From an uncultured Clostridia bacterium (GTDB taxonomy: Bacteria; Bacillota; Clostridia; TANB77; CAG-508): DNA of 39,764 bases. Positions 33,570-39,764 of the stretch are shown one piece after another. Location of the stretch: contig CALWZY010000003.1 in NCBI GenBank assembly GCA_944386155.1, positions 1 through 39,764 on the forward strand, given 5' to 3'. The position numbers and the translations under genes were made by a program. The notes below the pieces were generated by a model that was not told the DNA's origin, searched no databases, and saw only the letters and a list, made by a program, of their open reading frames with translations. Every line of letters starts with the position of its first letter. Within the stretch, counting starts at the first letter, position 1.

Positions 33570-36500
33570 TTATACTATTTCAACATTATTTTCTCCAACA
33601 ATTTCTTTAAATACGTTTACTATTTCTTCTGTTAGATAAATAGCACCACATGGTTTTACTTGAGCTTTATCTACAACTTGTACTTTAAAATTAACTCTAT
33701 CACCACTAAAGAACTTTATTGCTCCTCTTAATCTTTTCTTTACTTCTTCGTCTAATTCAGTAATATCTATTTGTAAAGTAGTATATTTTCTCTCACTATT
33801 ACTTGTTTCATTAGCATCAAATTCTCTAATATCTCTTACAACAATTTTTGCTACATCATCTTCTTTTATACTTAATCTACCTTCTACTAAAATAATATTA
33901 TCTTCTATTAGAATATTACTTACTCTATTATATACACTATCAAATATTATTATTTCAGCACTTCCATATAAATCTTCTACAGTAACAAAAGCCATTATAG
34001 TATTTTTCTTTGTATATTTTTTCTTTACTGATGTAATTGTACCTGCATATTTTACATTTTGTCCATCTTTAAAATTACTTTCTTCTTCATTATCCCCTAT
34101 TTTCTTTAAATCTAATGAATTAATATTAGTATTTTTAATAATACTTTCTCTTATTGAATCTAAAGGGTGTCCTGATATATATATTCCAAGCATTTCTTTT
34201 TCTTGTGATAATAACTCTTTTTTATCTAATTCATCTAAAACTATGTAATTATACTTAATCTCATCTGTAGCATCATTTGAAACTATATCAAACATTGTAA
34301 CTTGATTTGCAAGAGAATTTCTATTTTGATTATTTATAGTATCTAATATTCCTTCAAATGAAGCTAAAAGAGTATTTCTAGTTTGTCCCATATCATCAAA
34401 GCAACCTGCTTTAATTAAAGATTCTATACACTTTTTGTTTACATTTTCATCTTTAATTCTTTCGCAAAAATCTGTGAAACTTTTAAAATCTCCGTTTTTA
34501 TCTCTTTCACTAACAATGTTATTTACTGCTGCAACACCAACATTTTTAATACTTCCCATTCCAAATCTAATTTTTCCATCTTGTACTGTAAATTTTGTAA
34601 AACTTTTATTAATATTTGGCTTTAAAATATCAATATTTAATCTTCTACATTCATCAATATATACAGGAACTTTGTCTAGATTTCCTAAAAAACTATTTAA
34701 TGTCGCAGCCATAAATTCTGCAGGATAATAATATTTTAGATAAGCTGTTCTATATGATACTACAGAATAAGCTGCTGCATGGGATTTATTAAAAGCATAT
34801 TTTGCAAACTCTGCCATCTCATCAAATATTTTATTTGCAGAGGCTTCATCTATACCATTCCTTATGCACCCTGGGACTACAATATTTCCATTTTCATCTA
34901 CTTGTCCATGAATAAAATATTCTCTTTCTTTTGCCATTACATCTAGCTTTTTCTTACCCATAGCTCTTCTTACTAAGTCAGCTCTCCCTAAAGAATATCC
35001 TGCTAAATCTCTTACGATTTGCATAACTTGCTCTTGATATACCATACAACCATAAGTAACATTTAATATAGGTTCTAATGCTGGATGAGTATATTCGTTA
35101 TGCCCTGGATGTCTTTTCCCTTTTATATATCTTGGAATTTGATCCATTGGCCCTGGTCTATATAAAGAAACTCCAGCTATAATATCTTCTAAACAGTCTG
35201 GCTTTAATTCTTTCATAAAATTAGTCATTCCAGCACTTTCAAACTGGAATATTCCACATGTATTTCCTTCTGCCCATTGTTTATAAACATTTTGATCATT
35301 CATGTCTTTATCGAATTCAACATCTATACCTCTTGTTTGTTTAACAAGTTTTATACAATCTGATATAACAGTTAAAGTTCTTAATCCTAAAAAGTCCATT
35401 TTTAGAAGTCCAAGTTCTTCTAAAAGAGTCATTGTATATTGAGTTGAAACATTACCATCGTTTAAATAAAGTGGCACATAAGTATCTACTGGGTCTTTTG
35501 TAATAACAACTCCACAAGCATGTGTAGAAGCTTGTCTTGGAAGACCCTCTAAAGCTATTGCAATATCTATTAATTGTTTAACATTTGGATCTGAGTCATA
35601 CCATTCTTTAAATTCTCTATTTTGTTCTAATGCTTTTTGTATTGTGATATGAACTTCCATTGGAATCATTTTTGCAAGTTTATCTGTTTCAGAATATGGG
35701 AAATCTAAAACTCTACCAACATCTCTTATAACCATTCTAGCTGCCATTGTTCCAAAAGTTATAATTTGTGATACATGATCAATACCATATTTTCTTCCAA
35801 CATAATCTATAACTTCTTGTCTTCTTTCATAACAAAAATCAACATCAAAATCTGGCATGCTTATTCTTTCAGGATTTAAAAATCTCTCAAAAATTAGATT
35901 ATATTTTATAGGGTCAATGTCAGTTATTCCAATACAATATGCTGCCATAGATCCTGCACCTGATCCTCTTCCTGGCCCTACTGGGATTCCTACACTTTTA
36001 GCATAATTTATAAAATCCCAAACAATTAAGAAATAATCAACATATCCCATTTTATTAATTATTGATATTTCATATTCTAATCTATCTCTTAATTCTTTAG
36101 ATGGATTTTCTCCATATCTATTTTTAAAACCATCATTACAAAGCTTTACGAAATAGTCTAAATGAGTATCAAACTCTTCTGGTACATCATAATTTGGAAG
36201 TTTCGTAACACCAAATTCAAAGTCATAATTACATTTTTCTGCGATTTTTACTGTGTTTGATACAGCTTCTGGTATATTTTCAAAATACTCAGACATTTCT
36301 TCTTTAGATTTTATATAAAACTCATCTGTCTCAAACCTCATTCTATCTTCATCAGACATCTTTTTTCCTGTCTGAATACATAATAAAACTTCGTGATTGT
36401 AAGCATCTTCTTTTTTTAGATAATGTGCATCATTTGTTCCAACTAATGGAATATTTAATTTCCTTGCAAGTTCAATTAATTTCTGATTTACCATTACCTG

Positions 36501-37043
36501 TTCTCTTAATCCATTATTTTGAATTTCTATATAATAATCATCTTTAAATAAATTTTTATACCATAAAGCAATTTTCTCTGCTTTTTCCATATCATTTTGT
36601 ATAATAGCTTGTGGAAGTTCTCCTGCTAAACAAGCACTTAGACATACTAATCCTTCACTATACTTTTCAAGTATTTCTTTATCTATTCTAGGTTTATAAT
36701 AAAAACCTTCAACAAAAGAAAGAGATACAAGTTTTATTAAATTTTGATACCCCTTTTTATTCTTTACTAATAAAATAAGGTGATTATATCCAGCATCTAT
36801 AGAAGCTTCTTTATCAAATCTTGTTCTTCTTGCAACATATACTTCACATCCAATTATAGGCTTTACATCATTTTTCTTACATTCTTTGTAGAATTCAACT
36901 GCACCATACATTACGCCATGATCAGTAAGAGCAATAGCATCCATTCCTAATTCTTTTGCTCTTTTAGGTAAATCTTTGATTCTACTCATTCCATCTAATA
37001 AACTATATTCGCTATGGACGTGTAAATGCACAAAATTAGACAT
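33570..37043 (-). CDS. dnaE: DNA polymerase III alpha subunit (DnaE type)
   Basis: DnaE is a replicative C-family polymerase. The start at 37043 (MSNFVHLHVHSEYSLLDG, 1157 residues) is preferred over an extension of 11 residues, because AAGGAGG stands six bases before it and the family begins this way. The order is a PHP domain (HLHVHSEYS, LTDHGVMYG, GTNDAHYL), the palm with the catalytic acids (MPDFDVDFCYERR), and the fingers (RQASTHACGVVITK). The helix-hairpin-helix region follows, then an OB domain (VKYAGTITSVKKKYTKKN). There is no 3'-5' exonuclease insertion, so it is not PolC. Firmicutes usually carry both PolC and DnaE, the latter extending primers. Confidence 0.97.
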   Translation of the reverse strand: MSNFVHLHVHSEYSLLDGMSRIKDLPKRAKELGMDAIALTDHGVMYGAVEFYKECKKNDVKPIIGCEVYVARRTRFDKEASIDAGYNHLILLVKNKKGYQNLIKLVSLSFVEGFYYKPRIDKEILEKYSEGLVCLSACLAGELPQAIIQNDMEKAEKIALWYKNLFKDDYYIEIQNNGLREQVMVNQKLIELARKLNIPLVGTNDAHYLKKEDAYNHEVLLCIQTGKKMSDEDRMRFETDEFYIKSKEEMSEYFENIPEAVSNTVKIAEKCNYDFEFGVTKLPNYDVPEEFDTHLDYFVKLCNDGFKNRYGENPSKELRDRLEYEISIINKMGYVDYFLIVWDFINYAKSVGIPVGPGRGSGAGSMAAYCIGITDIDPIKYNLIFERFLNPERISMPDFDVDFCYERRQEVIDYVGRKYGIDHVSQIITFGTMAARMVIRDVGRVLDFPYSETDKLAKMIPMEVHITIQKALEQNREFKEWYDSDPNVKQLIDIAIALEGLPRQASTHACGVVITKDPVDTYVPLYLNDGNVSTQYTMTLLEELGLLKMDFLGLRTLTVISDCIKLVKQTRGIDVEFDKDMNDQNVYKQWAEGNTCGIFQFESAGMTNFMKELKPDCLEDIIAGVSLYRPGPMDQIPRYIKGKRHPGHNEYTHPALEPILNVTYGCMVYQEQVMQIVRDLAGYSLGRADLVRRAMGKKKLDVMAKEREYFIHGQVDENGNIVVPGCIRNGIDEASANKIFDEMAEFAKYAFNKSHAAAYSVVSYRTAYLKYYYPAEFMAATLNSFLGNLDKVPVYIDECRRLNIDILKPNINKSFTKFTVQDGKIRFGMGSIKNVGVAAVNNIVSERDKNGDFKSFTDFCERIKDENVNKKCIESLIKAGCFDDMGQTRNTLLASFEGILDTINNQNRNSLANQVTMFDIVSNDATDEIKYNYIVLDELDKKELLSQEKEMLGIYISGHPLDSIRESIIKNTNINSLDLKKIGDNEEESNFKDGQNVKYAGTITSVKKKYTKKNTIMAFVTVEDLYGSAEIIIFDSVYNRVSNILIEDNIILVEGRLSIKEDDVAKIVVRDIREFDANETSNSERKYTTLQIDITELDEEVKKRLRGAIKFFSGDRVNFKVQVVDKAQVKPCGAIYLTEEIVNVFKEIVGENNVEIV

Positions 37044-37129: not shown

Positions 37130-37158
37130 TTGACAATCTATTATTTCTGTATTATACT
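37130..37158 (+). promoter_or_regulatory. Sigma-A promoter of the structured RNA
   Basis: The -35 is TTGACA (37130-37135) and the -10 is TATACT (37153-37158), with 17 bases between. It is a near-perfect promoter with no reading frame behind it. Confidence 0.85.
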
Positions 37159-37161
37159 TAA

Positions 37162-37385
37162 GCTCCAATAAGTAAGCCTTACCCCACCTTGCAAAAGGTG
37201 TTTAAATAAGGAGGCATTGCTTTTTGTAATAGATTGCTAAGCAATCCCATGCTACACCCAGCATTCTATTGCAGGTTATGTACTTTTAAAAAATATTATC
37301 CTAGTTGGATTTGTTTTTTATTATATGTAATTTGAAAAGCAATAAACCGACCTCTTGGATCTTTCCAAGAGGTCTTCCCTTTTTA
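37162..37385 (+). ncRNA. Free-standing structured non-coding RNA, family not identified
   Basis: A strong promoter and an intrinsic terminator bound about 220 bases without a credible gene. The gap as a whole (37044-37447) also holds the dnaE promoter. Visible pairing: hairpin CACCTT/AAGGTG (37185-37200) flanked by GCCTTA and GGC; a long-range helix ATTGCTTTT (37216-37224) with AAAAGCAAT (37335-37343); and a junction closed by AATAGA/TCTATT (37228-37233, 37265-37270). The junction holds a TTGC/GCAA hairpin and ATGCT/AGCAT around ACACCC. An unpaired AT-rich segment and the terminator stem (37349-37358 with 37365-37374) follow. G+C in the folded parts is well above the surroundings. Downstream genes face the other way, so it is not a leader. 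It could be a 6S-like or raiA-type RNA; I cannot assign it by eye. Confidence 0.8.
37349..37385 (+). terminator. Intrinsic terminator of the structured RNA
   Basis: A perfect 10-base-pair stem GACCTCTTGG/CCAAGAGGTC with a six-base loop is followed by TTCCCTTTTT. Confidence 0.9.
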
Positions 37386-37447
37386 TTTATTATTTATTTT
37401 CATTTATTATTCATTTTTATCTATTATTTATTATTCATTTTTATAAA

Positions 37448-37684
37448 TTATAATAATTTTATTATATCTGAAATATTTCCATTTTGAACTTTTGGAATTG
37501 ATATAATTTCAAATTTAGATAATTTATCTCCAAATTGAATTTCTACAACATCTCCAACTTTTACATCAAAACTTGGTTTAACAACTTTTCCGTTAATTGA
37601 GACTCTTCCCATATCTATAACTTCATTTGCAACACTTCTTCTTTTTATAACTCTACTCATTTTTAAAAACTTGTCTATTCTCAT
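37448..37684 (-). CDS. S4-domain RNA-binding protein, RqcP/YabO-like
   Basis: This 78-residue protein is a single S4 domain: MRIDKFLKMSRVIKRRSVANEVIDMGRVSINGK followed by VKVGDVVEIQFGDK. RqcP (YabO) of Bacillus helps the ribosome quality-control factor RqcH add alanine tails to stalled chains on 50S subunits. Size and sequence fit that group, although Hsp15-like proteins share the fold. The family often lies near mazG and divIC; here it follows truA by about 70 bases on the same strand, probably cotranscribed. Confidence 0.8.
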   Translation of the reverse strand: MRIDKFLKMSRVIKRRSVANEVIDMGRVSINGKVVKPSFDVKVGDVVEIQFGDKLSKFEIISIPKVQNGNISDIIKLL

Positions 37685-39158: not shown

Positions 39159-39764
39159 TTATTTACTCAAAATCCAATCTATAATAACTTTTTTTATTTC
39201 ATAATATTCTTGTTCTGTAAATTGCATATTAGCAATGCAAAATCTTCTACTAGATATATGAGAACAAAACATACATTCATATAAATTATTACAGTCTTGA
39301 ATAAAATATGAATTTACTATTTTAGATGAACATATTACATTATAACTATTAGAACAAGTTGCAGAATCATCAACTCTTATACAATTTGTTGAACTTCCTG
39401 TTCTTTGAGATGCAATCATACTTTGACAATCGCCACATCCATCAGAAAAAATCATATTCTTACATTTTCTGCAATCTGTTGATCTAAATATATTTTCAGA
39501 ATCATATATTGTATCACTTTCAGATACATTTATTGAATTATATACTCTTTCTGTTGTTGTAAAATTTATTCTATCCCATATATCTATTATATCTTTTAGA
39601 GATGTTATATCTCTTTTAGAAACCATCCATCCTTTTGCTTTATCATATTTTCGCATTGTATCTTGTTTAATATATTTTTTAGAATTTTCCATTTCTGACC
39701 AAGTAATCTCTCCTGTAACACTATCTTTAACTTGTTTTGGAAGTTTTACATCAAAAGCAAATTT
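39159..39764 (-). CDS. Cys-rich repeat protein, 5' end outside the window
   Basis: The reading frame runs open to the right edge, so the N-terminus is missing. At least 201 residues are visible; an internal ATG at 39692 is unlikely to be the start. After a helical, Lys-rich part (KQDTMRKYDKAKGW), residues from about 75 on form an irregular repeat. Short Ser/Asn/Asp strands are broken by CxxC or CxC pairs (CRKC, CGDC, CMFC), with 11 cysteines in all, which suggests a beta-solenoid with clustered cysteines. The end (RRFCIANMQFTEQEYYEIKKVI) recalls the NKQY-S/T-KEEY ending of Cys-rich proteins I have seen in phages and in small-genome bacteria. That likeness is from memory. No function can be given. 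Confidence 0.7.
   Translation of the reverse strand, partial: KFAFDVKLPKQVKDSVTGEITWSEMENSKKYIKQDTMRKYDKAKGWMVSKRDITSLKDIIDIWDRINFTTTERVYNSINVSESDTIYDSENIFRSTDCRKCKNMIFSDGCGDCQSMIASQRTGSSTNCIRVDDSATCSNSYNVICSSKIVNSYFIQDCNNLYECMFCSHISSRRFCIANMQFTEQEYYEIKKVIIDWILSK

Follow-up and report, generated by a model that had tools for sequence, protein, structure and literature searches.

The window analysed here, the whole stretch of 39,764 nucleotides, carries on its plus strand, at 37130-37385, a unit that combines a promoter with some 215 nt of structured sequence and a hairpin terminator of 11 bp, the promoter-like site and the terminator hairpin being 190 bases apart. The predicted structured non-coding RNA itself is placed at 37162-37379 (+, ~215 nt), from its fold z-scores and its identity to the corresponding sequence of G012, a congeneric species. 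Its divergent neighbour is dnaE, coding for DNA polymerase III alpha (33570-37043, minus strand), and its convergent neighbour is a gene for a 78-aa S4-domain protein (37448-37684, minus strand), which resembles Hsp15/RqcP through matches below the curated cut-offs. The RNA is thus divergent from dnaE and convergent with the S4 gene, as stated in the preliminary description, both genes being on the minus strand. Within the window, 73 bases separate the S4 stop codon from the terminator stem.

Concerning the flanks, dnaE probably starts at the ATG at 37043, the listed GTG (37076) being in all probability too early; this ATG fits a DnaE start and sits behind a promoter-like site at 37095-37067. 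From the terminator up to the S4 gene (37386-37447), repeats resembling ATTTATT/ATTCATT follow one another, in a run that exceeds its G012 counterpart by 58 bases. Farther along, a Cys-rich open frame of 201 aa on the minus strand (39159-39764) is cut by the end of the window.

Signals bounding the unit

The sigma-70-type promoter TTGACA-17-TATACT (37130-37158, +) agrees with the consensus at 11 of 12 positions, and both its hexamers and its spacing are kept in G012, which bears out the near-consensus promoter first noted at this position. Transcription would be expected to start near 37162-37167. In such A+T-rich DNA, about two sites with 11/12 matches are expected by chance per strand of the window, so that the match alone is weak evidence; the weight of this putative promoter comes from its position and its conservation in G012.

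The intrinsic terminator (37349-37374, +) has an 11-bp stem and a 4-nt loop, followed by TTCCCTTTTT. Two terminator-like matches were found, both corresponding to this stem (one per strand), against 0.2 expected in shuffled sequences. It had been described as perfect: a terminator is indeed present, but the adjective is generous, as a CCC breaks the T tract. Read on the minus strand, the stem is not followed by a clean T tract. Promoter and terminator are conserved in G012 together with the RNA that they enclose.

Fold, constraint and plus-strand pairing

The segment 37164-37383, terminator included, has a folding energy of -69 kcal/mol (z = -7.25 against shuffles). When the terminator is left out, the plus strand still gives -48.8 kcal/mol (z = -4.0 against shuffles), whereas the minus strand gives a z of only -1.35. 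Furthermore, the G012 RNA, folded independently, adopts the same three arms, with a z of -8.93. In arm A (37170-37222, +), AAGUAAGCCUU pairs with AGGAGGC-A-UUGCUU in the minimum free energy fold of both genomes; this arm contains an inner hairpin, CACCUU/AAGGUG (37185-37200), and an AAGGAGG stretch that is partly paired in the predicted fold. Arm B is a hairpin (37227-37271, +) in which the AUCCCA loop (37244-37249) and the ACACCC strand (37254-37259) are exposed, both being predicted unpaired and invariant in the two genomes, the only two available for this comparison; AGCAAUCCCAUGCUACACCC of the same arm is also invariant between the window and G012. Arm C (37272-37334, +) is a long A+U-rich hairpin, the least conserved of the arms in sequence, with its helix kept.

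A long-range helix (37216-37343, +), formed by AUUGCUUUU (37216-37224) and GAAAAGCAAU (37334-37343), is an alternative incompatible with the outer portion of arm A, arms B and C being common to both folds. This 9-bp helix and a junction with two hairpins had been proposed at the outset; they are present in the first fold computed here, but an alternative using the same bases is equal in predicted energy. Indeed, for an RNA starting at 37162 in the window, closure of arm A by AAGUAA/UUGCUU and the long helix have the same predicted energy. In G012, arm A closure is better by 7 kcal/mol with the start at 37162, and slightly worse than the long helix with a start at 37165 or later. The 5′ end is therefore critical to the choice of the fold.

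The RNA is identical between the window and G012 at 190 of 215 positions (88%), with 7 gapped columns, compared with 233 of 332 four-fold sites in dnaE (70%; Fisher P = 4e-7) and 54 of 78 in truA. It is no more conserved than the dnaE promoter stretch adjoining it, which is identical at 72 of 83 positions. When the fold was predicted from the window only, 13 pairs with letters on both sides differed in G012, and 11 of these 13 still pair, through ten one-sided changes and one two-sided change, the other two being broken. Random placement of the same substitutions would keep 6.9 pairs and break 9.75 (P ~1e-4). The reverse test, with the G012 fold scored on the window, was weaker, with 11 pairs kept and 8 broken (joint P ~0.002). 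On the minus strand the excess disappeared, with 4 pairs kept and 6 broken. Ten of the 11 kept changes are one-sided, to or from G-U pairs, and such changes are meaningful on the plus strand only. With two homologues and one two-sided pair, this is pairing-consistent evolution and not full proof of covariation; as far as two homologues allow, the covariation check leaves the RNA call standing. At the level of sequence, the comparison establishes the unit, its constraint and the selection on plus-strand pairing.

None of the ORFs of at least 8 codons is conserved in full in G012, and a conserved peptide is excluded by the one- and two-base indels and the broken frame that separate the two sequences. 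The view first proposed, of a free-standing structured RNA that holds no gene, is supported by a whole transcription unit conserved in a second species, by the lack of a conserved ORF, by conservation of pairing on the plus strand only and by a constraint above that of four-fold sites.

Distribution and novelty of the RNA

In G012, the whole unit is found at the same site between dnaE and the S4 gene. A covariance model built from the window and G012 pair detected no credible copy in 12 other species of the genus, and the readable dnaE/S4 junctions in other species of the genus hold the terminator only, nothing, or unrelated elements. Relatives retrieved via the S4 gene are mostly without the RNA. 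In the family, order and class samples (385-391 genomes each, overlapping), the covariance model gave no convincing homologue: over so many genomes, chance alone would be expected to yield a match such as that of 25 bits in G112 (per-genome E = 0.006), whose alignment is unconvincing, and a 22-bit match in G884 is at chance level for the number of genomes searched. Likewise, when the 20-base motif of arm B was searched in 390 family genomes with up to 3 mismatches, the only matches elsewhere were seven scattered ones with 3 mismatches. Phages and plasmids gave short A+T-rich matches only by blastn, and exact motifs of the RNA are absent from the viral contigs. A mobile element was also considered and rejected, the RNA being single copy per genome in the model search, with no terminal repeats seen. 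The best reading of this distribution is a young RNA, restricted to a single genus, in which two species carry it at the same position.

Two other species of the genus carry different sequences upstream of dnaE. In G006 (locus L137, ~1936-2455), a different unit occupies the site: TTGACA ... TATAAT resembles a promoter, AAAGGGGGTG precedes a putative ORF of 71 codons, and AAGCCGGGTACTTGTACCCGGCTTTTTTT forms a strong terminator; the unit has no Rfam match, and its NCBIfam match lies below cut-off. In G001 (locus L144, ~1180-1450), a long inverted repeat, CTCTATATATACAAAATCAAAACAAG ... CTTGTTTTGATTTTGTGTATATGGAG, encloses part of the dnaE/S4 junction, and the enclosed sequence could be a further RNA or a mobile element of small size. 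The dnaE/S4 site is perhaps a hot spot where small insertions accumulate.

At the gathering cut-offs of Rfam, applied to the whole window, the unit matches no family, and at E<=10 both the window RNA and the G012 RNA gave chance-level matches only. One of the candidates rejected is BSnc120, at 21 bits for a cut-off of 114, a match that rests on the terminator. The preliminary description could not match the RNA to RNase P, tmRNA or SRP RNA, and we likewise obtained no covariance-model match to these at E<=10; the check it suggested against Rfam models, 6S and raiA included, gave no match at the unit and leaves the novelty standing. A riboswitch or cis-acting leader was rejected in turn: no gene follows on the same strand, the terminator being followed by the convergent S4-domain gene. 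In all likelihood we are dealing, as judged from these sequences, with a real, uncatalogued and lineage-restricted sRNA gene. Its evidence for selection on structure is strand-specific, and it adds a credible uncatalogued sRNA gene for the poorly studied small-genome Clostridia. With its range of two species, it offers a case in which the origin of a young sRNA gene could be traced at a defined intergenic site.

Possible modes of action

What could such an RNA do? Our leading reading, which we hold tentatively and which owes its place to the analogy with UCCC-type sRNAs, is an independently transcribed sRNA of ~215 nt, with its own promoter and terminator and three arms, that would act in trans by pairing. 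We infer both its transcription and this trans action by base pairing. The RNA would be transcribed from its own promoter, end at its own terminator and fold into the three arms plus the terminator. The AUCCCA loop of arm B and the ACACCC strand would then contact G-rich translation-initiation regions of mRNAs, and a second or switchable contact could come from the 5′ strand GCUCCAAUAAGUAA, which is left unpaired by one of the two near-isoenergetic folds. The target search, with as many as 3 mismatches allowed, recovered the complement of arm B nowhere but in the RNA's own gene. For the 5′ strand, nearly every complement falls within coding sequence; one exception precedes a 432-codon ORF in G012.

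The RNA could instead bind protein or serve as a scaffold, through titration of RNA polymerase as 6S RNA does or as an ornate RNA of the raiA/OLE kind, and not pair with mRNAs. We regard this as rather improbable, though it is the strongest of the competing explanations. The binding surface would be provided by the long helices and the invariant, partly paired core, and the strong fold with its three arms round a junction is consistent with this, as are the long invariant blocks, some of them partly paired, e.g. GGUGUUUAAAUAAGGAGGCAUUGC. However, the unit matches no such Rfam family, the genome's 6S RNA lies elsewhere with a score above cut-off and raiA was not found. Moreover, known scaffold RNAs of the 6S/raiA/OLE sort are widespread, whereas the distribution of this unit is very narrow.

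It is unlikely that the RNA is an antisense or local regulator, overlapping read-through of the S4 gene and tuning its mRNA, or acting on the dnaE promoter via transcription. The convergent layout, with its 73 bases from the terminator stem to the S4 stop codon, would suit such a role, and read-through into the RNA region is plausible because the stem has no clean T tract on the minus strand. However, plus-strand pairing has been kept, which antisense action alone would not require, and relatives with the same dnaE/S4 gene pair lack the RNA. We give still less credit to a bistable non-coding RNA of a new class, in which the invariant AUUGCUU would have two alternative partners, the 5′ AAGUAA and the 3′ AGCAAU; in response to a signal, the switch would expose or hide the 5′ GCUCC and the AAGGAGG, for action on ribosomes or mRNAs.

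Could the hairpins have arisen by chance in A+T-rich intergenic DNA and be retained only through the close kinship of G012? The homologues come from only two genomes, and the adjoining dnaE promoter region is equally conserved. However, the z-scores of -7.25 in the window and -8.93 in G012, an RNA identity far above that of four-fold sites and the preservation of pairing on a single strand make this improbable indeed. Least probable of all, and already largely refuted by the G012 sequence, is a short-ORF message, for instance for a small hydrophobic peptide (28 aa, ATG 37249) whose translation the fold would regulate: MLHPAFYCRLCTFKKYYPSWICFLLYVI is open in the window and an AAGGAGG lies within the unit, but a frame shift in G012 brings a stop after 12 codons, the ATG at 37249 has no ribosome-binding site in front of it, no other ORF is shared with G012, and there is no NCBIfam match.

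The RNA can finally be compared with known systems. Bacterial SRP RNA (RF01854) is similar in size and likewise free-standing, but its model gives no match at the unit, and the best match of the genome is elsewhere: it is found on contig C4 and scores 59 bits, narrowly short of the cut-off of 60. The raiA RNA (RF03072), described from Clostridium, is also structured and ~210 nt long, but its covariance model matches neither the unit nor any other place in the genome searched. 6S RNA (RF00013) resembles the unit as a free-standing, highly structured RNA of ~200 nt; however, it is absent from the E<=10 matches of the unit, and the genome's only match, its own 6S RNA, is a separate one on contig C33, with 80.2 bits, above cut-off.

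The trans-acting pairing sRNA that we favour finds its closest analogy in the UCCC-type sRNAs known from Gram-positive bacteria: RNAIII, RsaE, SprD, FsrA and LhrC make contact with ribosome-binding sites through UCCC motifs that are accessible (PMC4132741, PMC3861533). The unit has neither sequence nor model similarity to these RNAs (Rfam being negative), nor a target found; LhrC, in particular, has two stem loops and a terminator region, whereas the fold predicted here is larger, with three arms. The shortness of the UCCC motif also counts against this reading. Nevertheless, like RNAIII domains, RsaE, SprD, FsrA and LhrC (PMC4132741, PMC3861533), the unit is free-standing, has in its sequence its own promoter and intrinsic terminator, and presents a UCCC in an exposed hairpin loop, the AUCCCA of arm B, which is predicted to be accessible and is conserved in the two genomes that carry it.
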